Shown here: positions 762 to 19,774 of the stretch, piece by piece
Numbering within the stretch: the stretch's first letter is position 1
How the letters are laid out: every line of letters begins with the position of its first letter
NCBI GenBank assembly: GCA_024223125.1
Contig: JAAEOP010000905.1
Coordinates: forward strand, 1-35,764
Direction of reading: 5' to 3'
DNA length: 35,764 nt
Origin: Chloroflexota bacterium
GTDB taxonomy: Bacteria; Chloroflexota; Anaerolineae; Promineifilales; Promineifilaceae
The notes under the pieces: generated by a model
Database searches by the model: none
What the model saw: only the letters and a program-made list of their open reading frames with translations
What the model was told of the DNA's origin: nothing
Made by a program: the position numbers and the translations under genes

Positions 762-1601
762 TTATAAATTTGGGCCTTTATCTGGTTTGCCCTTCCCCAG
801 TTCAATGGAGCGTTGGTAAGCAGCCCATATGCCACGCGAAATGACAGTCCGTAAGCCCCCTTTCTCCATATGGTATAAAGCAGAAGCGGTTGTGCCGCCG
901 GGCGACGTGACCTGATTCCGTAGTTCAGCCACATGCTTACCGGATTGAGCCGCAAATTCCACCGAACCCAGAATCGTCTGGAAAACCAATTCCTCGGCAA
1001 CACGGCGCGAAAAGCCCATGTGTACCCCAGCGTCAATTAACGCCTCCATGAACAAAAACACATACCCCGGCCCAGACCCGCTGAGGGCGGTCGCCATGTC
1101 CAGGTAATCTTCTTCATCTACAGAAATCTCTTTACCAAAAGAAGCCAAAATTGTCTGAGCTTGTTTTTTTTGCTCTGAGGATACTTCTGGAGTAGCTGTC
1201 CAGACGGAAATGCCCTGGCCAATTTGGGCTGGCGTATTGGGCATGGCTCGCACTACGGCCGCATGAGCGGAACCATCGGCCAATTTACGGATGGGCATAC
1301 CGGCAATGATGGAGAGGAGTAAATCGCGGCTGCGTAAATGGCCTCGAATTTCTGGCAGTACCAAAGGCACCGATTGGGGTTTGATGGATAGAACAATGAT
1401 TTGGCCGGCTTCGGCCGCTTCGCGGTTGTCTTTAGTTACATGGATACTGTATTTTTCTTTTAACTCATCCAGCCGAGGCAGCCAGGGGTCGGAAGCAATG
1501 ATTTGCGCGGCCGTGACGCTGTTTTGAGACAACAAGCCCCGTATCATGGCCTCGCCCATAATGCCACTGCCGATGAAAGCAATTGTTTGATCTTTGAACA
1601 T
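762..1601 (-). CDS. proC: Pyrroline-5-carboxylate reductase (279 aa)
   Basis: ProC catalyses the NAD(P)H-dependent last step of proline synthesis (pyrroline-5-carboxylate to L-proline) in the cytoplasm. The N-terminal Rossmann motif FIGSGIMGEAM is at residues 9-19. AMPNTPAQIGQG lies mid-protein, and the C-terminal dimerisation and active-site segments ALSGSGPGYVFLFMEALIDAG and QVTSPGGTTASAL are all present. The 279-residue length is normal. The start is the ATG at 1601, with an AAAGG sequence about 7 nt upstream. Upstream lie a truncated MITE and a heptamer repeat, so any promoter would be in or beyond those. The downstream neighbour is the DinB remnant. Nothing suggests loss of function. Confidence 0.95.
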   Translation of the reverse strand: MFKDQTIAFIGSGIMGEAMIRGLLSQNSVTAAQIIASDPWLPRLDELKEKYSIHVTKDNREAAEAGQIIVLSIKPQSVPLVLPEIRGHLRSRDLLLSIIAGMPIRKLADGSAHAAVVRAMPNTPAQIGQGISVWTATPEVSSEQKKQAQTILASFGKEISVDEEDYLDMATALSGSGPGYVFLFMEALIDAGVHMGFSRRVAEELVFQTILGSVEFAAQSGKHVAELRNQVTSPGGTTASALYHMEKGGLRTVISRGIWAAYQRSIELGKGKPDKGPNL

Positions 1602-1616
1602 AGTATACCTTTGGGA

Positions 1617-1696
1617 GTAACCATTCAGGTGCCCGGCACTTCATTACCAAGTCTACTGGAGTAGCACACTCGTTTATAAGCGCCGGGCACCTTGGG
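1617..1696. mobile_element. MITE copy 2, truncated at one end
   Basis: The left terminus GTAACCATTCA, both inner palindromic arms and the complete central segment are present in the orientation opposite to copy 1. The segment between the inner arm and the missing terminus ends after CTTGGGAG, exactly where a GAGATTG heptamer repeat begins, and the right terminal repeat is missing. The second inner arm reads AAGCGCCGGGCACCT, one base different from copies 1 and 3. It lies between the start of proC and the end of the enolase-superfamily gene. Confidence 0.85.
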
Positions 1697-1740
1697 AGAT
1701 TGGAGATTGATCGCTCCCTAATCTCCAATCTCTAATCTCT
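1694..1740. repeat. Heptanucleotide repeat with inverted arms (GAGATTG / CTCTAAT type)
   Basis: Two GAGATTG units are followed, after about 10 nt, by CTCCAAT and CTCTAAT units on the same strand, so the two halves are complementary and can form a hairpin. The right part overlaps the 3' end of the upstream minus-strand gene and supplies its last codons and stop. Related repeats occur at 9468, 12263 and 15850. Confidence 0.8.
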
Positions 1741-2856
1741 AAATATTTCCTTTTGCTGCGTCACGGCCGCCAATCGCTTCCAATCTATCTCAATGCCCAG
1801 ACCAGGGCCAGAAGGAACATTTACCGTACTGTCTTTCTCATTCAGGTAAAAGTGGGTGGCAATATCCTGCTCATAATAACGAGATGTAGCTGAAATATCG
1901 CCTGGCAAACTGATGCCGGGCAGCGCGGCCAGGGCTAATTGAGCCGCCCGGCCCACACCTGTTTCCAACATACCGCCAATCCAGATACCCAGTCCAGCCG
2001 CGCGGCACAAATCATGAATCTCCCGTGCAGTTGTCCAGCCACCGACGCGGGTGGGCTTGATGTTGATGATGTCGCACGCTTGGATTTCGATGGCGAATTG
2101 AGTATCGGCCGTTGAATGGATAGACTCATCCAGGCAAAGCGGTGTTTGAATGAGGGGTTGAAGTTTACTGTGTTGATAAATATCCACGTAGTCGAGCGGC
2201 TGTTCGATCATGAGCAAGTCCAGATCATCCATCGCCTGAAACAGGGGCGCGTCGCTGAGTTTATAAGCTGAATTGGCGTCAAGCATGATGCGAGTATCAG
2301 GGTAGGTTTGGCGAGCCAGACGAGCTAGTTCAATGTCGTGGCCGGGTTTAATTTTGAGTTTGATACGGCCGTACCCCTCATCCAGATGCCGCCCAATCAC
2401 AGACATTGTTTGCTGCATCGTCGGCTGCATCCCGATGCTGACGCCTACTTCTACTTGTGCTCTAGCTCCTTCGGCATAGGGAGCGGCCAGCTTTTGGGCA
2501 AAGGAGAGATTATCCCGTCGGGCAGTAATATCCCAGGCAGCCTGGTCTAAAGCAGCTTTGGCCAGCGGATGTCCGCGTACATGTCCCAACCAATCCCGCA
2601 TCTGTTCCGGCTCTTGCAACTCTTTACCCAAAACGGAGGGGATGAGAAAATCGGAGAGGATGTGTCTGGCAGTTACGGCCGTTTCATAACAGTAACCAGG
2701 ATCATTGGTAGCCACACATTCACCCCAGCCCGTTAAGCCCTCACTGTGTAAGGCTAAGATGAGACAACTGCGGTCTAGTTGAGTGCCAAAACTGGTCTTA
2801 AAAGGGCTGACCAGCGGCATAGAGATGGAATACAAGTCAATTCGTTCAATTTTCAT
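1732..2856 (-). CDS. menC: o-Succinylbenzoate synthase / N-succinylamino acid racemase family (374 aa)
   Basis: This is a muconate-cycloisomerase-type member of the enolase superfamily. The N-terminal capping domain (about 1-130) is followed by a beta/alpha barrel. Catalytic and Mg-binding residues are visible: the KxK pair K166/K168 (RIKLKIKPG), D193 (LDANSAY), E218 (MIEQP), D243 (LDES) and K267 (NIKPTRVGG). PSGPGLGI near the C-terminus is typical of MenC/NSAAR proteins. In the family these enzymes dehydrate SHCHC to o-succinylbenzoate in menaquinone synthesis and/or racemise N-succinylamino acids. Sequence alone does not separate the two roles, and no other men gene is in view. The length is normal. 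The last residues (FRD) are encoded inside a heptamer repeat. Confidence 0.85.
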   Translation of the reverse strand: MKIERIDLYSISMPLVSPFKTSFGTQLDRSCLILALHSEGLTGWGECVATNDPGYCYETAVTARHILSDFLIPSVLGKELQEPEQMRDWLGHVRGHPLAKAALDQAAWDITARRDNLSFAQKLAAPYAEGARAQVEVGVSIGMQPTMQQTMSVIGRHLDEGYGRIKLKIKPGHDIELARLARQTYPDTRIMLDANSAYKLSDAPLFQAMDDLDLLMIEQPLDYVDIYQHSKLQPLIQTPLCLDESIHSTADTQFAIEIQACDIINIKPTRVGGWTTAREIHDLCRAAGLGIWIGGMLETGVGRAAQLALAALPGISLPGDISATSRYYEQDIATHFYLNEKDSTVNVPSGPGLGIEIDWKRLAAVTQQKEIFRD

Positions 2857-6393: not shown

Positions 6394-7842
6394 ATGTCTG
6401 ACCCTAACCAAATGTCACGCTCAAAAACGATTGAGTACCTGGCGTCCCAATTGGATGGCCCTATGGCGCTGGATGTGTTTGTAGAACAAGTCCTGCAATT
6501 ATGGCATTCCAGCGCCAAAAATCCACAGGCAGGAGTGCGTCAGGGAATTCGGAATGATTATGAAGGCAACGTTCTTCTTTTTCTGGATAAGAAAACAATC
6601 ATTTCCCCATCTCTTGCCTTAAAAGATGTCCGCTTTCGTGTGCCCCTGACAGCGGAAGAGTTAGAGGCTAGCTGTTTACGATTAACCCCGTCTTTCCTGC
6701 ACATTCACCAAGGGGAAGCTTTATACCAGGAATTGGAAGCTGATGATTTTCACTTCGTAAAAGCAGACGGCAGTTCTCTACCCACCCACTTCGTTAAATA
6801 TACAGAAGAAGTCGAAACGCTCTTTGGTTCCCAGGAAATCGAGCGTATAGCTTTTGATCTGACACATTGGCAACCCTTCTACGACGCCCAACTAGAAGAT
6901 AGCATCATTATCACTATTTTGGATTGGGCAAACGGCCGTTACCAGCTCGACCTGGAAACGACACAGCAGCGGCAAATGCAGGCGGCCGTCATTGACCAGC
7001 GCAACCAACTGCTGGCCGACACCTTGTATGACCTGCTGGAATCAGCCGGAAAAGAGAGTATTTGGGCTAAGAGAGCGATTATGACAACCTATGCCCAGCT
7101 GCCTAAAGATGAGGTTGTGCCCGACCATTGGCTGTGGGCGCTTCGCGCTGACGGCCGTATGGTTTGGGGCGGGCACGATATCCGTTACGCTTCGGACAGC
7201 AGACTTAATATGGCAAATATGATCTTCGGGTTTGAGGCTGAACCTGAAGCAGAAGCGGAAGAAATCCCACTCTCGCCCGAGAAAAAACAGCAGGTTTACC
7301 GCTTCAAAGCTTATCTGAAACATCGCAAAGGATTGTGGCGGCGTATTGAAATTCAGGGCGGCCAAACGTTGGAAGATTTGGATGACATTCTGCACTCAGC
7401 CTTCAACCATGATTGGGACCACTTGAGCGGTTTCTGGCAGCTCATTCGGCGGGGCAAAGGACATCGTTACCGAGAGATGGAGTTAGCCACGATTTATCCT
7501 TTTAGCAATGATGGTTTTGGGAAAGACACGGCCGTTGCCAGCCTGGAATTAGAACCGGGGAATAAGCTCAAATACGTCTACGACTTTGGCGACTGGGTAG
7601 ATCATCGCCTGGAGTTAGAAGCGATTAACGCGCCTGAACCGGGAGCCGAATATCCCCGTCAGGTAGAGCAAAACAAACCCCGTTACCGCTACTGCCCCCA
7701 CTGCAAAGAACGCGGCGAAAAGAACATTGCTACCTGGATTTGTATCGAGTGTTCCACTTACGAGGGAAGACAGATACTCATCTGCGAAGATTGTCTGATG
7801 GAATATCACGAAGATCATTATGCCGAAGAAAAGGTGTATTAA
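6394..7842 (+). CDS. pRiA4b ORF-3-like domain protein with C-terminal zinc ribbon (482 aa)
   Basis: Residues about 300-410 match the plasmid pRiA4b ORF-3 domain: VYRFKAYLKHRKGLWRRIE, LEDLDDILHSAFNHDWDHL and the hallmark YVYDFGDWVDHRLELE. The biochemical role of this domain is not established. The N-terminal 300 residues are helical and I do not recognise a family in them; the first 80 could be a winged helix. From C434 there is a cysteine/histidine-rich tail (CPHC, CIEC, CEDC, then HEDH), which probably binds zinc and may contact nucleic acid or a protein. An AAGGA sequence precedes the ATG. The gene is 2 bp from the next one, suggesting a two-gene unit. Confidence 0.75.
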   Translation: MSDPNQMSRSKTIEYLASQLDGPMALDVFVEQVLQLWHSSAKNPQAGVRQGIRNDYEGNVLLFLDKKTIISPSLALKDVRFRVPLTAEELEASCLRLTPSFLHIHQGEALYQELEADDFHFVKADGSSLPTHFVKYTEEVETLFGSQEIERIAFDLTHWQPFYDAQLEDSIIITILDWANGRYQLDLETTQQRQMQAAVIDQRNQLLADTLYDLLESAGKESIWAKRAIMTTYAQLPKDEVVPDHWLWALRADGRMVWGGHDIRYASDSRLNMANMIFGFEAEPEAEAEEIPLSPEKKQQVYRFKAYLKHRKGLWRRIEIQGGQTLEDLDDILHSAFNHDWDHLSGFWQLIRRGKGHRYREMELATIYPFSNDGFGKDTAVASLELEPGNKLKYVYDFGDWVDHRLELEAINAPEPGAEYPRQVEQNKPRYRYCPHCKERGEKNIATWICIECSTYEGRQILICEDCLMEYHEDHYAEEKVY

Positions 7843-11299: not shown

Positions 11300-11729
11300 A
11301 TGACAACACAATTACCTCTCACCGTACAACAGGCGCTCGGATGATGTTGGCTTATCTGGGTTTAGAATACAAAGAGTTGGAAATTGTCCAAACTTTGAAC
11401 GCTAAACCGTATGGGACACCCAGTTTTGTATCAAAAAGCTGCAATCCATTGGATTACAGGTAGATTATCGCGAATGGTCTATCACAGAGTTAAACACCGC
11501 CATAGAGAATGATAAGCCTGTTGTAATCTTTGTCCGAACAGGTTTTATGGACATCTGGCAGGAAGATTTCGCTCATGCAATCGTGATAGTTGGGATTGAA
11601 CCTGAACACCAATTCTGGATAAACGATCCCGCCAAAAAACAAGCCCTGCTGCCCATATCATGGGATGGATTATTAGCTGCCTGGGCAAAATTTAGCTATC
11701 GTGGAGCGACTGTGAGCAATCCAAAATGA
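11300..11729 (+). pseudogene. C39-like cysteine peptidase, frameshifted
   Basis: An ATG at 11300 with upstream GGGAG begins MTTQLPLTVQQ but hits TGA at 11342. Homologous sequence continues in another frame as ARMMLAYLGLEYKELEIVQTLN, then shifts again near 11428 to a third frame (IKKLQSIGLQVDYREW, IFVRTGFMDIW, FAHAIVIVGIE, FWINDPAKK) ending at 11729. The pattern is that of peptidase C39/papain-like proteins, with the His in FAHAIVIVGI and the Asp in WINDPA visible. The segment that would carry the catalytic Cys (before ARMML) is deleted. Two shifts plus loss of the nucleophile make it a pseudogene. Its stop overlaps the next start (ATGA), a remnant of operon coupling. Confidence 0.75.
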
Positions 11730-12262
11730 TAACAATTTCCGGCAAGGCACAACTGACATTTATGCTGCCCACAGATGTGGAAACGGCATTTCAATTTTAC
11801 CAGGATGTGAACCGTATCTTGCCTTATTTGCCGCGTATCCAGTTTATTGAATCGCATGGAGATCAGCATTTGCGGATATGCTACGTCTCACGGGAATTGA
11901 ACGCTTACGATGTGAAGATTTATTGCGATGTGCAGGCTTTGGCCGACCATAGCAACTATTCGCTGCGGCTTGTGCCCAAAGAAGCGGCCCCTGAAATTAA
12001 AGCGAAATCAGGGTTTAATAAGACGTTGGCTTACGGCCGTTACAGCAGCGCCTCCATCTTCTACCCCAACGGCAACCAGACTCGGCTGGATTACCAGATT
12101 CATCTCTTCGCCGAACTACCCAAACCGTGGGCCATCAAATTTGTGCCCGATGCCGTTATGGATGGTATTGCCAACAGTATTACCAACCATCGCATTAAAG
12201 AAATTGCCCACGGCTTCATCCAACAATCATTGGGTGATTTAGCGGCGTGGAAGCCGGAATGA
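11726..12262 (+). CDS. DUF1997 / SRPBCC-type lipid-binding-fold protein (178 aa)
   Basis: It begins MITISGKAQLTFMLPTDVETAFQFYQDVNRILPYLPRI, the beta-strand and two-helix opening of the SRPBCC (START-like) fold. It continues through strands to a C-terminal helix (VMDGIANSITNHRIKEIAHGFIQQSL). The layout fits DUF1997 proteins. SRPBCC proteins bind hydrophobic ligands; in cox clusters CoxG is of this fold. Here it sits between a MoxR ATPase and a VWA protein, which repeats the CoxD-CoxG-CoxE combination. The start overlaps the preceding pseudogene stop by 4 bp. The ligand is unknown. Confidence 0.7.
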   Translation: MITISGKAQLTFMLPTDVETAFQFYQDVNRILPYLPRIQFIESHGDQHLRICYVSRELNAYDVKIYCDVQALADHSNYSLRLVPKEAAPEIKAKSGFNKTLAYGRYSSASIFYPNGNQTRLDYQIHLFAELPKPWAIKFVPDAVMDGIANSITNHRIKEIAHGFIQQSLGDLAAWKPE

Positions 12263-12314
12263 GGAGATTAGAGATTGACTTAATCTCCAATCTCTAATCT
12301 CTAATCTCCTAATC
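12263..12314. repeat. Heptamer array with inverted arms (GAGATTA / CTCTAAT type)
   Basis: It starts directly after the stop of the SRPBCC gene. GAGATTAGAGATT near its left end pairs with AATCTCTAATCTC in its right half. Additional CTAATCT units follow, up to about 6 bp before the ATG of the VWA gene, which has no separate clear ribosome-binding site. Confidence 0.8.
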
Positions 12315-12320
12315 ACCATC

Positions 12321-13559
12321 ATGACCCCCTCCCCCCCACCCGGCCACCTCTTACACAATCTAATTCTCTTCGGCCGTTTGCTGCGTGCATTGGGTATGAA
12401 TGTGAACCCCGGCCGTATGGTTGACCTGGTTCGCGCTTTGGATCATGTGCAAATCGGTCGTAAAGCTGATTTCTATTACACCAGTCGCAGCTTATTGGTA
12501 CATGAGCGAGATGACCTGCCTTTGTTTGATCAGGCGTTTGATCTCTTTTGGCGTAAGCCGTCCGGCGAAGGCGCCTGGTTTGAATTAGACAACTTTCGCC
12601 CCACAGAACCGTCGCCGCAAACCTTGATGACGCCCCCTATTTTAGACCCCTCATTCGGTGATGAAGATAACAGTCGCCAACCCCCTGATGAGGATGAAGA
12701 CATTCAGGAAATTATCGAGATCACCCGCACTTATAGCCAGCGAGAACTGCTGCAGGGCAAGGATTTTGCCGCGCTGACGAAAGAGGAGATGGCAGTGATC
12801 AAACTGCTTATGTCGAAGATGGTGTGGGATTTGGGGATGCGGCGCACCAGACGGATGCGGCCTGGCTACGGCCGTTTGCCAGACCTGCGCCGTGTTATGC
12901 GGAAAAATCTGCGCTACGGAGGGGAACTGTTGGAATGGCCTACCCGTGAACCCAAATTCAAACCCCGCCCCCTCATCATTATCGCCGATATTTCCGGCTC
13001 TATGGAACAGTACACCCGCCTGCTGCTGCACTTTACCTACAGTCTGGCGGCCAGCCTGACCCGAACGGTAGAATCTTTTGTATTCAGTACCCGGCTCACT
13101 CGCATCACCCGACAGTTACACGGCCGTGACATAGACCATTCCCTCAACGAAGTGGCCGATCAGGTACATGATTGGTCGGGCGGCACACGCATTGGCGAAT
13201 CCCTGAAAACATTTAATTACAATTGGGGACGGCGCGTTTTAGGGCGCGGCGCCATCGTTCTGCTCATCAGCGACGGTTGGGACCGGGGCGATCCTGATTT
13301 ACTGCGAGAGGAAATCGGCCGTTTGCAGCGTAGCTGTTATCGTCTCATCTGGCTCAACCCCTTACTAGGTTCCGCACAGTACGAACCATTGACGCGGGGG
13401 ATGCAGGCTGCCCTGCCCCACATTGATGATTTTTTACCCGTACATAATCTAGTCAGTCTGGAAGCGTTAGCCGGCCATTTACAAAATCTGACGACGGAGA
13501 AACGGCCGTCGCGGCGCCACCCCAAACTTTCCGGCGCTGCCTTCATCCGGCAGCGGTAA
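12321..13559 (+). CDS. VWA-domain protein, CoxE-like (412 aa)
   Basis: The N-terminal half (LIFGRLLRALGMNVNPGRMVDLVRAL, then an acidic linker about 113-128) is that of the CoxE/YehP-like VWA group. The MIDAS motif DISGS is at residues 223-227, followed by GGTRIGESL and LISDGWDRGD. These are the further MIDAS loops, so metal binding looks intact. Such proteins work with MoxR ATPases in assembling target enzymes. It pairs with the MoxR ATPase at 10364. The gene ends 9 bp before the convergent feoB permease gene. Confidence 0.88.
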   Translation: MTPSPPPGHLLHNLILFGRLLRALGMNVNPGRMVDLVRALDHVQIGRKADFYYTSRSLLVHERDDLPLFDQAFDLFWRKPSGEGAWFELDNFRPTEPSPQTLMTPPILDPSFGDEDNSRQPPDEDEDIQEIIEITRTYSQRELLQGKDFAALTKEEMAVIKLLMSKMVWDLGMRRTRRMRPGYGRLPDLRRVMRKNLRYGGELLEWPTREPKFKPRPLIIIADISGSMEQYTRLLLHFTYSLAASLTRTVESFVFSTRLTRITRQLHGRDIDHSLNEVADQVHDWSGGTRIGESLKTFNYNWGRRVLGRGAIVLLISDGWDRGDPDLLREEIGRLQRSCYRLIWLNPLLGSAQYEPLTRGMQAALPHIDDFLPVHNLVSLEALAGHLQNLTTEKRPSRRHPKLSGAAFIRQR

Positions 13560-13568
13560 CGCCAATTA

Positions 13569-14996
13569 TTATCCTGCTAACAGCCGCCAGATTTGGGCCA
13601 CAAAGAAGGTAACGATGAAACCGAGAGCCAGGGGGAGCAAGGCAGACACAACCGTCCATCTTTTGCTCCTCGTCTCCTTATAAATGGTATAAATGGTGGT
13701 GCTGCACGGATTATGGATGAGGGAAAAGAGCATGAGGTTGACGGCCGTTAGCAGCGTCCATCCACTGGCTACCAGCAACTCTTTCATTTGGGAGAGGGAA
13801 TCCAGCTCAAACATAACACCTGTGCCCGGCCCTGCTTCTGGCTGTCCCAATACCAATACTGTTAACATCAATATCGTAGGAATAACAATTTCATTGGCCG
13901 GAATAGCCACAATATAAGCCACCAGAATAACGCCGTTCAAGCCGATGAGGATACCCAACGGATTTAGAGCATTGATCATATATTCGGCAATACTAACGCC
14001 GTTAATGGTGATGTTGGCAATGAGCCAGATGGCCGCCCCGGCCGGCACGGCAAAAATAATCGCCCGCCACAGTACCAATAAGGTACGGTCAATGAGTGAA
14101 GTGTAAATGGTTTGCCACACTTGCGGTGGCCGGTACGGTGGCAGTTCCAGGCTAAATGTGGAAAGTTCGCCGCGCAGGACAGTGCGTGCCAGCGCCCAGG
14201 AGATGAGGAAGGTGAGCAGAACCCCCAACACAGCTATGCTTACCACTGCCAGCGCCGACACCAATCCGGCCAGATAAGCGGGAACCAATGTCCCAATAAA
14301 AAGGGTGGCAACGAGGATTTGGGTGGGCCAACGGCCGTTACACAACGCAAAATTATTCGTAATCACCGCAATCACTCGTTCACGGGGGCTGTCAATAACG
14401 CGGGTGGCAATGACCCCGGCTGCATTACAGCCAAAGCCCATCATCATGCTTAACGATTGCTTGCCGTGTGTGCCCGACTTTCTGAATACATTGTCCAGAT
14501 TAAAAGCCACGCGGGGTAGATAGCCAAAATCCTCTAGCAGTGTAAACATGGGGAAGAAAATAGCCATCGGTGGCAGCATCACGGCAATGACCCACGCCGT
14601 GGCCAAATAGATGCCATCTAACAGCAACCCAGACAGCCACCAGGGCAGTCCAATGGCGGCCGCCACTTCATGCAGCCAGGGATAAATCGTCTCGATCAGA
14701 ATGAAGGCTAATGCTTGCGAAGGGTAGTTAGCGCCCACAATCGTCAGCCAAAAGACGATAGCAAAGAGTAAAATCATCAACGGAAAGCCCCAAATGCGGC
14801 TGGTGACAATGCGGTCAATGGTACGATCAAGGTCAAAGCGGGGTTTTTCAGACGGCCGTGTCACCGCCCGATCCGCTAACCGCGCCGCATCCGTATAAAT
14901 ATCTTCCAACAACTGCTCATGAAAATTTTGTCCAATCTCCCAACGCAGCGTCTCGGCCGTTTGTAGAATGTCATTTGTAGGTGTAAATGTCGTCAT
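13569..14996 (-). CDS. feoB: FeoB permease part, split gene (475 aa)
   Basis: This is the membrane half of ferrous iron transporter FeoB, encoded separately from its GTPase. About ten hydrophobic segments are present. The first gate motif GFGCNAAGV (residues 187-195) and a second gate-like region [19 protein letters not shown] near the C-terminus are visible. The N-terminal 65 residues are a soluble helical linker. The start overlaps the GTPase gene stop by 4 bp (ATGA), so translation is coupled and the two halves should assemble into a Fe(II) uptake system in the cytoplasmic membrane. No frameshift is seen at the junction: the split is a clean stop/start, not decay. Confidence 0.92.
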
Positions 14997-15838
14997 GACT
15001 GCTCCATAATAAGTAATCGGTTATCGGTCAGCGGTTGTTGATCAGCGATCAAATTTCCTAAATCGCCACTCTCCACAGCCTTCACAATGACAGGATCCCC
15101 TTCCAAAAGACGGAGAGCTACCCAACGTATATTGGGAAGACCGGGAAAAGCAGCTTCGATTTTTTCGGCCAGTTTAGAAATCGCCTGACGTATGGCCGGC
15201 GACTCCGATTTTACGCGGTATGGTTTGACCACCGTTTCTCCGGCGGCAACATCAGCAATCGCTTGCAGCAGATTGTCTATACCTTCACCCTGGCGAGCGA
15301 TGGTGGGTACAACCGGTACACCCAAATCTCGTGCCAGCCGACGGCCGTCCACCTGCAAACCATGCCGCTCTGCTTCATCCATCAAATTCAGACAAATCAC
15401 CGCCCGATCCGTTATTTCCAATATTTGCAGAACCAGATTTAAGTTACGTTCCAACCGGGTGGCGTCTACCACGGCGACAGTTACATCCGGCTGCCCAAAA
15501 AGGATAAAATCGCGGGCTATTTCCTCGTCCAAACTGGTAGACAGCAATGAATAAGTTCCGGGCAAATCTACAATTTTATAGCCGTGGTCGCCGTAACTGT
15601 AGCCCCCCTCAGCGCGGGTAACAGTTTTGCCCGGCCAGTTACCCGTGTGCTGCCGCAAACCGGTCAGAGCATTAAAAACAGTGCTTTTACCCGTATTAGG
15701 ATTGCCTGCCAAAGCAACCACATAATCCCAATCAGACATATCAATGCCCAGCTTTTGTAAGTTACCAGCATTGTGTATTGGACAGGTATCGCAAGCAGTG
15801 GGAGCCGCCTGGTTCAATTTAATTGTTTGATTTTGCAT
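14993..15838 (-). CDS. feoB: FeoB GTPase part, split gene (281 aa)
   Basis: The G domain of FeoB contains G1 GNPNTGKST (residues 45-53), G2-region TGNWPGKT (65-72), G3 DLPGTYS (91-97) and G4 NLMD (151-154). A helical regulatory domain runs from about 200 to the end. An N-terminal ACDTCPI motif offers two cysteines (C16, C19), as in several FeoB proteins with a metal-binding leader. The start is taken at ATG 15838, with AGAGAT a few bases upstream. A TTG at 15877 would extend the frame into the heptamer repeat and into the preceding gene and is less likely. It hydrolyses GTP to regulate the permease encoded next. Confidence 0.92.
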
Positions 15839-15849
15839 AATATCTCTTT

Positions 15850-15890
15850 GGGAGATTAGAGATGGATAATCTCTCAATCTCCAATCTCCA
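15850..15890. repeat. Heptamer array with inverted arms (GAGATTA / CTCCAAT type)
   Basis: On the plus strand GGAGATTAGAGATGGAT is followed by AATCTCTCAATCTCCAATCTCC, partly complementary. The array occupies the gap between the regulator and the FeoB GTPase gene and runs into the regulator's 3' end, encoding its last residues and stop (GGAGATTGA). Confidence 0.8.
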
Positions 15891-16911
15891 TCTTACGTAC
15901 TTTAATGAGTTCTGCCTGCTCGTCTCGCAGCGCAATTGTTGCCCCGCGGATCTGGTAGGCGATGGGGTTGCCGCCGGGGCTGCGGAATTCGACCGTAATG
16001 TGAGTGCCGCGTAAAATACCCAGGTCCATCAGGCGACGGCGTTCGGCGCCGCGCAGTTGGGAGGAGAGGATGACAACTTCGGCCGTTTCACCAGGCCGTA
16101 AACAAGTTAAAGCTTCACTACCAGCCAATGCCGGATCAGGGGTCACGGCCGTTTCCTCCACCACCACAGACACATTCGCCGCAATAATGGGGGCCAACAT
16201 ATGCTCATCCCCATTGGCCCAAAAACGGATACGGCTAGGGGACGATTCAGTTACACGCACAGGCATACCGGGGTGCAGGCCCTCGGCCGCAAGCTGGGCG
16301 TAAACTAGCTCTGGCTCATCTTCCAGGTGAACAATGCGGGCCGGTGTATCCAGAGGTAAGGTAGTTAGCGGCCGTCCGCCATGCCCCACAACCTGCCCTG
16401 CCGCGGTGGGAATGGGGTCGCCGTGAGGGTCATAGGTGGGGTTCCCCAACCGCTGCGCCAGACTGTTTACCTCTTGAGGAGATAGGGTGTGTTCAATTTG
16501 TTCGGCACGACCGTGCCATTCTGCTTCGTCATAACCCGTTTCTTCAGCCAGGTGATGTTCCCAAAGCCGGTGGGCGCGTATGATGTGTAGGGCGGCTTCC
16601 CGACCAGAGGGCGTCAAGCGAATTTCCCCTTCTTGTAAATTGAGCAACTCGTCGCTTTGCATCACAGCCAACAGTTTGGTCGTGTCGTCCTGATTGATAT
16701 TCAATGTGCCGGCAATGTCAGCCAGTCCCGGCAAACGGCCGTGCATCTCTTGTTTGTGAATGTATTTGAGTGCATCTTCAACGAGCACTCGCTGGCTCAG
16801 GCGGCGGCTTTGCTGCCAGCGCCAGTAAACTCCTTTTTCGGGCCAGAAGATGAGAGTTGTGATGAGTACGGCCGTTAGGCCCAATAGTAATGCAGTTAAT
16901 GGATCAGTCAT
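15874..16911 (-). CDS. Membrane-anchored DtxR-type regulator fused to two FeoA domains (345 aa)
   Basis: In order: one membrane helix (about residues 5-23); a winged helix (about 43-103, ending [12 protein letters not shown]); a DtxR/MntR metal-binding dimerisation region ([31 protein letters not shown], ending DPHGDPIP); and two SH3-like FeoA domains (about 180-255 and 268-340, the second with [13 protein letters not shown] and [17 protein letters not shown]). DtxR proteins repress metal uptake genes when loaded with Fe or Mn, and FeoA is the cytosolic partner of FeoB. This single protein can therefore sense iron, bind DNA and touch FeoB, at the membrane. It is the first gene of the split feoB operon, with an AGAGG ribosome-binding site and the promoter at 16943-16971. 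Confidence 0.88.
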
Positions 16912-18788: not shown

Positions 18789-19046
18789 ATGAAAGGTTCT
18801 CTGGAAAACCAGAAGTTTGGACAGGTTAGGCTTTTTCAGAAAAATAATGATCCAATTAAATCTGAAAAAGCCTCGATCCAATTCCAAAAATACCGCCGAT
18901 TTACCAAAGGTAATCTCACCGAGCTAACTTCATACGCTGCCCTATTTGGCAGGGATGATATTATTGAGCAAACAATTGAAAATAGTTTTAGATATTTTAT
19001 TATGCCAGTTTTGGATAAGAGCGGAGAATTTGAGGTACTGCCATGA
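18789..19046 (+). CDS. Hypothetical 85-aa protein, overlapping the methyltransferase start
   Basis: The frame starts at ATG 18789 and ends CCATGA, so its stop overlaps the next ATG by 4 bp, typical of an operon. It is basic in the first half (KFGQVRLFQKNNDPIKSEKASIQFQKYRRF) and hydrophobic/acidic in the second. I recognise no family. The sequence looks A/T-richer than its neighbours and could be a remnant rather than a functional gene. Confidence 0.4.
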   Translation: MKGSLENQKFGQVRLFQKNNDPIKSEKASIQFQKYRRFTKGNLTELTSYAALFGRDDIIEQTIENSFRYFIMPVLDKSGEFEVLP

Positions 19047-19774
19047 TATATGATCCAACGGATCCAGAATTAGCGTCGCTGCTCCGACTATCGGGTGGGG
19101 TTGGTGGGAAGCGGGTGTTGGAGATCGGATGTGGCAACGGCCGTTTGACCCGCAAATACGCCCCACAAGCCAGCCACGTTGATGCTATTGATCCCAATGA
19201 AGACAAAATCGCCAAAGCGAAAACATTGGCTCCCTCCTCTGAACATGTCCATTATTACGCTGTTGCCCTGGAAGATTTCCAGATACCTCAGCCATATGAT
19301 TTAATCATTCTGGCCTGGTCATTGTGATGAATGGAACCGGAGAGCATGGTTCATGCTCTAAAACAAATTCGGCAAATGTTGGCGCCAAACGGCTGTTTAA
19401 TTGACATGCACCCCATCGGTAAACCAGCCCCCATCACCGTCCGTATCGGCGAGGAACGACATCTGGCAGGTTGGATACGGGAAGAGAGTGAGTATGAACA
19501 GTATCTATTAGCGGACGAGGCTTTGCAAACGGCCGTTGCCCACAATTGGTACCAGCAAAAAGCAGATGAAACCTTCGCCTTCATCACCTACTTCGACAGC
19601 TTACCCGATCTGGAACAATATTTGGCAGAAGAATGGAAAGCAGCTTATATCGAATCATTGGTCTCCATGCAAATTGAATCCTTAATGCGCAGCCCCATTC
19701 TAGATCAAGAAATTATCATCAAAGAAATTGTGCGAATCGCTTGTTTCACGCCAAATTTCTGGCTTACGACATGA
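19043..19774 (+). CDS. Class I SAM methyltransferase interrupted by tandem in-frame UGA-UGA
   Basis: Motif I VLEIGCGNG is at residues 25-33, the acidic motif II VDAIDPNE follows, and motif IV is DLIILAWSL (86-94). At 19325-19330 two consecutive TGA codons interrupt the frame. It then continues unchanged as MEPESMVHALKQIRQMLAPNGCLIDMHPIG and on to 19774 with no other lesion (244 codons in all including the stop). As I recall, homologues have Cys-Cys or a similar pair after A/S-W-S-L and before the P-E-x-M motif. A perfect 8-bp hairpin starts 10 nt after the second TGA. Possible readings are a young pseudogene, two polypeptides with restart at the ATG directly after the stops, or UGA recoding. 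It overlaps the 85-aa gene by 4 bp. Confidence 0.6.
19341..19359 (+). other. Perfect hairpin just downstream of the UGA-UGA pair
   Basis: AGAGCATG (19341-19348), loop GTT (19349-19351) and CATGCTCT (19352-19359) form an uninterrupted 8-bp stem with a G as first loop base, 18 nt after the second UGA. As I remember the bacterial SECIS model, it needs a stem-loop with a G in the first two loop positions about 16-37 nt downstream of UGA, and this fits. It lies within codons for E-S-M-V-H-A-L, so coding constraint may explain part of it. Confidence 0.6.

Follow-up and report, generated by a model that had tools for sequence, protein, structure and literature searches.

The locus considered here raises the question of how a methyltransferase gene is translated when two adjoining TGA codons stand within its otherwise open frame. 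It belongs to a Chloroflexota bacterium of the class Anaerolineae (GenBank assembly GCA_024223125.1, contig JAAEOP010000905.1), of which the whole stretch of 35,764 nucleotides that was analysed is called the window in what follows. Judging from the sequences compared, we think it very probable that the product of the gene is a single methyltransferase of full length, with selenocysteine (Sec) inserted at both UGA codons by means of one SECIS hairpin, and that it represents a new selenoprotein family with an adjacent Sec-Sec pair. The features are the following, in window positions.

19043..19774, plus strand: whole coding sequence, a predicted 243-residue class I SAM-dependent methyltransferase obtained via two read-through UGA codons (Pfam; pLDDT 92.7, pTM 0.89).
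19043..19324, plus strand: part 1, 94 codons, the SAM-binding half (matches over cut-off to Methyltransf_25 and to several related families of Pfam).
19325..19327, plus strand: UGA 1, predicted selenocysteine, residue 95 (UGA in 44 of 45 members and Cys in 1; Cys in 117 of the 120 listed homologues).
19328..19330, plus strand: UGA 2, predicted selenocysteine, residue 96 (UGA in 37 of 45 members and Cys, as TGC or TGT, in 8; Cys in 117 of the 120 listed homologues).
19331..19771, plus strand: part 2, 147 codons, the remaining Rossmann sheet and the C-terminal strands (predicted structure; the database relatives are free-standing pieces).
19341..19359, plus strand: predicted bacterial SECIS hairpin, with an 8-bp stem formed by 19341-19348 and 19352-19359 and the apical loop GUU at 19349-19351 (folding and comparison).

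The frame begins with MIYDPTD, runs to LAWSL, meets the two TGA codons directly afterwards, continues from an ATG as MEPESMVHAL and ends in WLTT before its terminator, which is also a TGA (19772-19774). Translation thus bore out an earlier examination of the letters alone (the sequence-only reading), which had described 19043-19774 as open save for two adjacent TGA codons followed by ATG. Assignment to the class I methyltransferases is based on Pfam matches above cut-off, on the string EIGCGNGR, which we take to be the SAM-binding motif, on a predicted Rossmann-like fold and on matches of the predicted structure. Part 2 alone gave no Pfam match; in the predicted structure of the read-through protein, a single class I methyltransferase fold spans the junction. 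One of the closest known proteins is the N-methyltransferase NodS (PDB 3ofk, 3ofj), with 23% identity, a likeness that does not imply a similar substrate; the NCBIfam NodS model gave the window protein 46.1 bits against a cut-off of 300. Just upstream, an open reading frame of 85 amino acids (18789-19046, plus strand), which has no Pfam match, overlaps the start of the methyltransferase by ATGA and could be translationally coupled to it or be spurious.

The residues that relatives carry at this place give the first indication of what the two codons stand for. A protein search with the read-through frame returned, besides the window's own fragment, 16 relatives that consist of the C-terminal piece only, 48-75% identical and beginning with M....MVHAL, MVHAL or a close variant, and in the best three relatives of full length (P0018-P0020) WSLCC stands where the window has its stops; with C-terminal pieces on one side and WSLCC in full-length relatives on the other, the upstream stop seemed to be conserved across many lineages. 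A distant full-length match from Micrarchaeota (P0022, E 1e-4) has no Cys-Cys, and P0021, a piece of 133 aa, lacks this site. The profile search for homologues yielded 844 proteins at E<=1e-8, and among the best 120 of them (178-288 aa) the site is occupied by Cys-Cys in 117, by Trp-Trp in two and by Ser-Phe in one, for a query profile that favours Cys-Cys matches because UGA had been entered in it as Cys together with three Cys-Cys proteins. The presence of Cys-Cys in homologues, which the sequence-only reading had put forward, was found in 117 of the best 120 of 844. These Cys-Cys class I methyltransferases (within P0018-P0139, profile E from 1.7e-83) belong to the same family by profile but have Cys codons instead of UGA; they are named only "class I SAM-dependent methyltransferase" or UbiE-like, and the source names among the listed homologues include Thaumarchaeota, Thermoplasmata and Heimdallarchaeota. 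The two Trp-Trp proteins (P0084 and P0117) are metagenome proteins with the MVHAL motif behind the site, and presumably show UGA-UGA translated as Trp by a gene caller. A quick tree, which is unrooted and was made without the site and hairpin columns, placed 28 of the 32 database proteins used in a separate group, and the Cys-Cys protein P0018 inside the UGA group. The Ser-Phe protein, P0045, has neither Cys-Cys nor a UGA pair, yet it also falls within the UGA group on this tree.

For the UGA-containing relatives, a stop-tolerant search was carried out in 298 genomes of the class of genome G001, in which the best 25 matches, from 24 genomes, all have one or two in-frame TGA codons. The E-values of this search lie close together on both sides of the boundary (4.3e-15 for the last member with TGA, 1.8e-12 for the first match without), and a further weak match with one TGA occurs in G274 (E 2.7e-7). 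When 400 genomes from the phylum, a set that overlaps with that of the class, were searched with a profile, 54 matches at E<=1e-20 were obtained, of which 52, in 47 genomes, contain one or two TGA and no other stop (TAA or TAG); the remaining two are weak and partial, lack TGA (E 2.7e-21 and 7.2e-21) and are separated from the rest by a gap that starts at 6.3e-35. The codons were read in 45 distinct members, namely the window, L001, L002, L014-L036 and 19 of the 30 loci read from the 54 phylum matches, the other 11 repeating genes already read; L013, a duplicate of L001, was removed before counting. L001 and L002, from Anaerolineae metagenome-assembled genomes and with proteins 46-47% identical, have the same TGATGA and the hairpin.

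Across the 45 members the site reads TGA-TGA in 36, TGA-TGC in four, TGA-TGT in four and TGT-TGA in one, with TAA or TAG at either codon in none. Sense codons in close relatives, which the sequence-only reading had regarded, together with the absence of any UGA-decoding tRNA, as a sign against recoding, occupy both sites in none of the 44 relatives read from Chloroflexota; Cys-Cys is found in homologues that are more distant. On the quick tree, the eight UGA-Cys members require eight changes, at least five of which are forced by well-supported branches, so the exchange between UGA and Cys at the second codon has recurred; its direction is something we infer, the tree being unrooted.

Several other matches were considered along the way. 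Six loci from the class search (L037-L042, the best stop-free matches that came as loci) were rejected as members and treated as other methyltransferases, because their alignments (33-52 bits) cover the SAM-binding half only and Cys-Cys is absent from the site. Genome G150 (contig C16, L052) carries two copies of the UGA methyltransferase about 5 kb apart (6708-7445 and about 11589-12356, minus strand), the first of which (L022) is of the UGA-Cys type, while the second has one TGA according to the class search. None of 21 pattern matches in viral contigs was a relative, and the plasmid search in near mode gave no match.

The second line of evidence is the hairpin behind the two codons. The coordinates given in the sequence-only reading were correct: the perfect 8-bp stem with loop GTT begins 10 nt after the second UGA, and the G of the loop lies 18 nt after that codon, and 21 nt after UGA 1. 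According to the legend of Figure 2 in PMC13188914, the bacterial SECIS model comprises a loop of 3-9 nt, a stem of 4-16 bp, a G in the first two loop positions and 16-37 nt between UGA and loop; when these rules are applied by hand, the window hairpin agrees with them for either codon, with its 3-nt loop starting with G, its 8-bp stem and its spacings of 21 and 18 nt. Folding of the single sequence is not decisive, as the 60-nt segment is only mildly unusual (MFE -14.6 kcal/mol, z -1.86, with 10 of 200 shuffles as good).

By comparison among relatives, the pairing is far beyond chance. The conserved stem has 7 bp and starts 14 nt behind the first UGA and 11 nt behind the second. Of the 182 cells that these inner seven pairs make up in 26 members, 180 are paired; synonymous resampling of the codons, repeated 20000 times, gives a mean of 124.8 (sd 5.2) and a maximum of 144. 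In all 45, pairing extends to 97.8% of 315 cells and falls to 22.5-61.6% when the 3' partners are slid by 1-3 columns. Both-sided changes occur in six of the seven stem pairs (26 cells, shuffled mean 7.1), the second pair from the base, for instance, being G-C in 28 of the 45 members and A-U in 16, and the covariation score of 0.260 (0.131 when shuffled) was reached by none of 500 shuffles. The number of further pair types was not above that of shuffles in the 45 members (297 of 500 as high), nor in an earlier covariation test (500 of 500). As these shuffles ignore kinship, more weight should be given to the column slides and to synonymous resampling. Codon choice follows the same pairing: a Ser codon in the stem is always AGC opposite GCT (10 of 10), a Gly codon always GGC or GGT opposite GCC (16 of 16), and in the 26 members the hairpin His is CAT in 24 of 24 cases, although the remainder of these genes has 80 CAT and 82 CAC; the Val codon of the loop varies (GTT 12, GTC 9, GTG 5). 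In L085 and L090 the full stem is kept with other amino acids (ESVGDTL and ESVVDAL) than ESMVHAL. The motif MVHAL is present in 38 of the 45 UGA members and in none of the 117 Cys-Cys homologues, so it seems to be the RNA hairpin that shapes the protein motif; the possibility once raised, that coding constraint on the peptide produced the hairpin, looks reversed. A 24-nt segment folds with an MFE of -7.5 kcal/mol or lower, the limit set by the bacterial SECIS model, in 44 of the 45 members. The exception is the sole Cys-UGA member (L084:1879-1938, minus strand), whose hairpin is weak (-3.4 kcal/mol); perhaps it is losing its SECIS or has a different one.

The machinery for selenocysteine insertion was searched in 25 carrier genomes, i.e. 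the 24 carriers of the class and G002, which are relatives of the window organism. SelA was found in all 24 and in G002; its co-occurrence alone is weak evidence, since SelA exceeds the cut-off in 256 of the 298 genomes of the class. SelB is above the cut-off in 22 of the 25 carriers, and in three of ten genomes without a SelA match; the three carriers without it are G111, where fragments are present, G059 and G188. For tRNA-Sec, 24 of 25 carriers exceed the cut-off, the best match of each being 93-95 nt long with at least 61.8 bits, and the exception is again G188 (1.4 Mb); the same cut-off is passed by 5 of 14 control genomes too, and weaker matches of about 86 nt are probably tRNA-Ser. ARAGORN reported a tRNA-Sec with anticodon UCA in both genomes tried; within the window itself there are no tRNAs or Rfam families. 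The search for selA, selB and tRNA-Sec that had been suggested thus turned out positive for most carriers, which are relatives of the window organism, with the exception of those few in which SelB or tRNA-Sec does not reach the cut-off. Taken with the Cys-Cys homologues, the UGA-UGA conserved in 36 of 45 members and the compensatory changes in six of seven stem pairs, this supports what the sequence-only reading had proposed beside a UGA-decoding tRNA-Cys, namely selenocysteine with a SECIS-like hairpin.

The following mechanism can be envisaged. The hairpin at 19341-19359 would act as SECIS and recruit SelB with Sec-tRNA(Sec); SelB would act at both codons, both of which would become Sec, and the single hairpin would have to serve two successive codons. 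In the product, the Sec-Sec pair would directly follow strand beta-4 (motif IV). In class I methyltransferases, the place just after beta-4 is the substrate side of the SAM site. With low confidence, we suggest that the pair might work as a vicinal diselenol/diselenide that binds or activates a thiophilic substrate (a metal, a metalloid, a thiol or a selenol) for methyl transfer, or else as a redox switch. Under selenium shortage, translation should end with residue 94, so that a stub results.

Two Sec insertions off one hairpin are mechanistically demanding, which counts against the Sec-Sec reading. One rival explanation is that only UGA 1 is efficiently decoded as Sec, UGA 2 being mostly a stop or decoded in some other way; in its favour, UGA 1 is the more conserved of the two (44 versus 37 of 45 members), and there is one hairpin for both. 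We think that this is improbable: 36 of the 45 members keep UGA at the second codon under the same hairpin, and the replacement of UGA 2 by Cys in eight members indicates that a residue is needed there.

Still less likely, in our opinion, is a conserved split enzyme in which translation stops at UGA-UGA and re-initiates at the next codon, giving two subunits that assemble. The window has an ATG at this point, and the second piece is what gene callers annotate: the profile of the C-terminal half matched 2167 proteins at E<=1e-5, the best 120 of which are all pieces of 141-155 aa without mention of selenium in their names, and 118 of these 120 begin at a point five residues ahead of MVHAL, the expected position of the codon that follows UGA-UGA (the rest of the 2167 may include Cys-type or other proteins). 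However, ATG follows the two sites in no more than 15 of the 45 members, the others having ATC (12), ATT (11), ATA (2) and GTG, GTC, TTT, ACC or CTC (1 each). Stop-and-restart does not explain the eight UGA-Cys members and the Cys-UGA one, nor why the stop is never TAA or TAG; moreover, homologues have Cys-Cys within one chain, and the cut would fall just past a core strand of the single model fold. A restart at the ATG had also been raised in the sequence-only reading.

A comparably small chance can be given to the reading of UGA as another residue, whether a tRNA-Cys with anticodon UCA, Trp readthrough or a general reassignment of the codon is responsible. A UGA-reading tRNA-Cys would also agree with the Cys-Cys of 117 among the 120 listed homologues. 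On the other side, TGA ends 10 of 24 hand-picked long open reading frames of the window as well as the methyltransferase gene itself, which indicates that UGA has not been reassigned, the hairpin is conserved at SECIS distance, and tRNA-Sec, SelA and SelB are present in most carriers. Finally, two stops in one gene normally hint at a lesion, but a fresh pseudogene or an assembly error, the former also an early suggestion, is hardly credible. For the family it is refuted by the covarying hairpin and by the 45 members, from many genomes, all of which have UGA or Cys at either codon; since TGA-TGA recurs in independent genomes, an assembly error at 19325-19330 is very unlikely. The preferred reading remains a single chain with Sec at both codons.

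Haft and Tolstoy (2025) are said to be the source of several of the listed selenoprotein families. A review of 2026 gives 119 prokaryotic selenoprotein families and subfamilies in its Table 1, where methyltransferases have the motifs UxxG or CxxU and no row has the motif UU, i.e. adjacent Sec-Sec (PMC13188914). The closest in kind is MduS (NF045649), which in Table 1 is likewise a methyltransferase domain with two Sec by UGA recoding, but with the motif CxxU and no adjacent pair, the place of the second Sec not being given in that table (PMC13188914); its model gave the window protein 19 bits against a cut-off of 380, and no match above the cut-off in any of the 25 carrier genomes. The ArsM selenoprotein (NF008823), its fusions (NF041536, NF041537) and the methyltransferase/UXPK-star protein (NF047649) are also Sec methyltransferases; for these, Table 1 gives UxxG, with further Sec in the fusions (PMC13188914), whereas the members of the window family are single domains of about 240 residues. 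An ArsM-like function was considered, since ArsM selenoproteins exist. In alignment A2 (26 UGA members with TGA as C, and three Cys homologues), 20 of the 29 sequences are similar at E<=0.001 to NF041537 and 20 to NF047649 (best E 6.7e-12 and 1.5e-12, respectively). Such a function was rejected, as the models score far below their cut-offs where scores were shown: P0019 and P0020 have at most 47.2 bits on NF047649, NF041536 and NF041537 (cut-offs 460-575), and at most 44.6 on NF041537 against 510. The window protein itself has no match to these three models at E<=0.01. Its best NCBIfam match is the corrinoid protein-associated methyltransferase CpaM (NF043040), with 56.7 bits below a cut-off of 180, and no model of NCBIfam release 20 fits it over its cut-off.

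Literature searching met no adjacent Sec-Sec methyltransferase, and the available text of PMC12013277 has no occurrence of the word "methyltransferase"; we call the family unlisted with respect to Table 1 of PMC13188914 and to NCBIfam release 20. From the sequence comparisons, it most likely constitutes a new family of selenoproteins, with an adjacent Sec-Sec pair as its unusual feature. We consider it reasonably probable that this is a previously unlisted and widespread family with a Sec-Sec pair as active-site element and with SelB acting twice in immediate succession, and that its vicinal diselenol/diselenide may perform a selenium-dependent methyl-transfer chemistry not yet described. It would add a selenoprotein family that standard annotation splits into pieces, and it makes testable whether one bacterial SECIS drives Sec at two consecutive codons, with UU, UC and CU forms existing in nature. 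It also raises the role of vicinal Sec-Sec in a methyltransferase for which other lineages use Cys-Cys, and may serve as an example of an RNA element that imposes a protein motif (MVHAL).

The neighbourhood was compared in search of hints to the substrate. There is no common partner gene: clusters of open reading frames from 20 regions, L002 and part of the window were common to at most 9 of the 22, in a count that excludes the methyltransferase itself and the antisense frames over it. As neighbours are not shared across the family, the substrate is something that we infer only, two vicinal selenols being suited to a thiophilic acceptor or to a redox switch. In the window, iron uptake genes are found on the minus strand at 13569-16911 (for a Gate/FeoB_C protein and for a fusion of an iron-dependent repressor with FeoA); they have no evident tie to the methyltransferase, and lie near DapF and ClpS. 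In four related loci (L044, L047, L048 and L049), a YqeB-like gene is located near the UGA methyltransferase, and an MFS transporter is also near it in the same four genomes. The L048 copy (1401-2315, minus strand) is YqeB (TIGR03309, selenium-dependent molybdenum cofactor biosynthesis; 317 bits, with the cut-off at 220), and the other three were assigned by blastp clustering with it. This proximity may be another link to selenium, or chance synteny in one sub-group.
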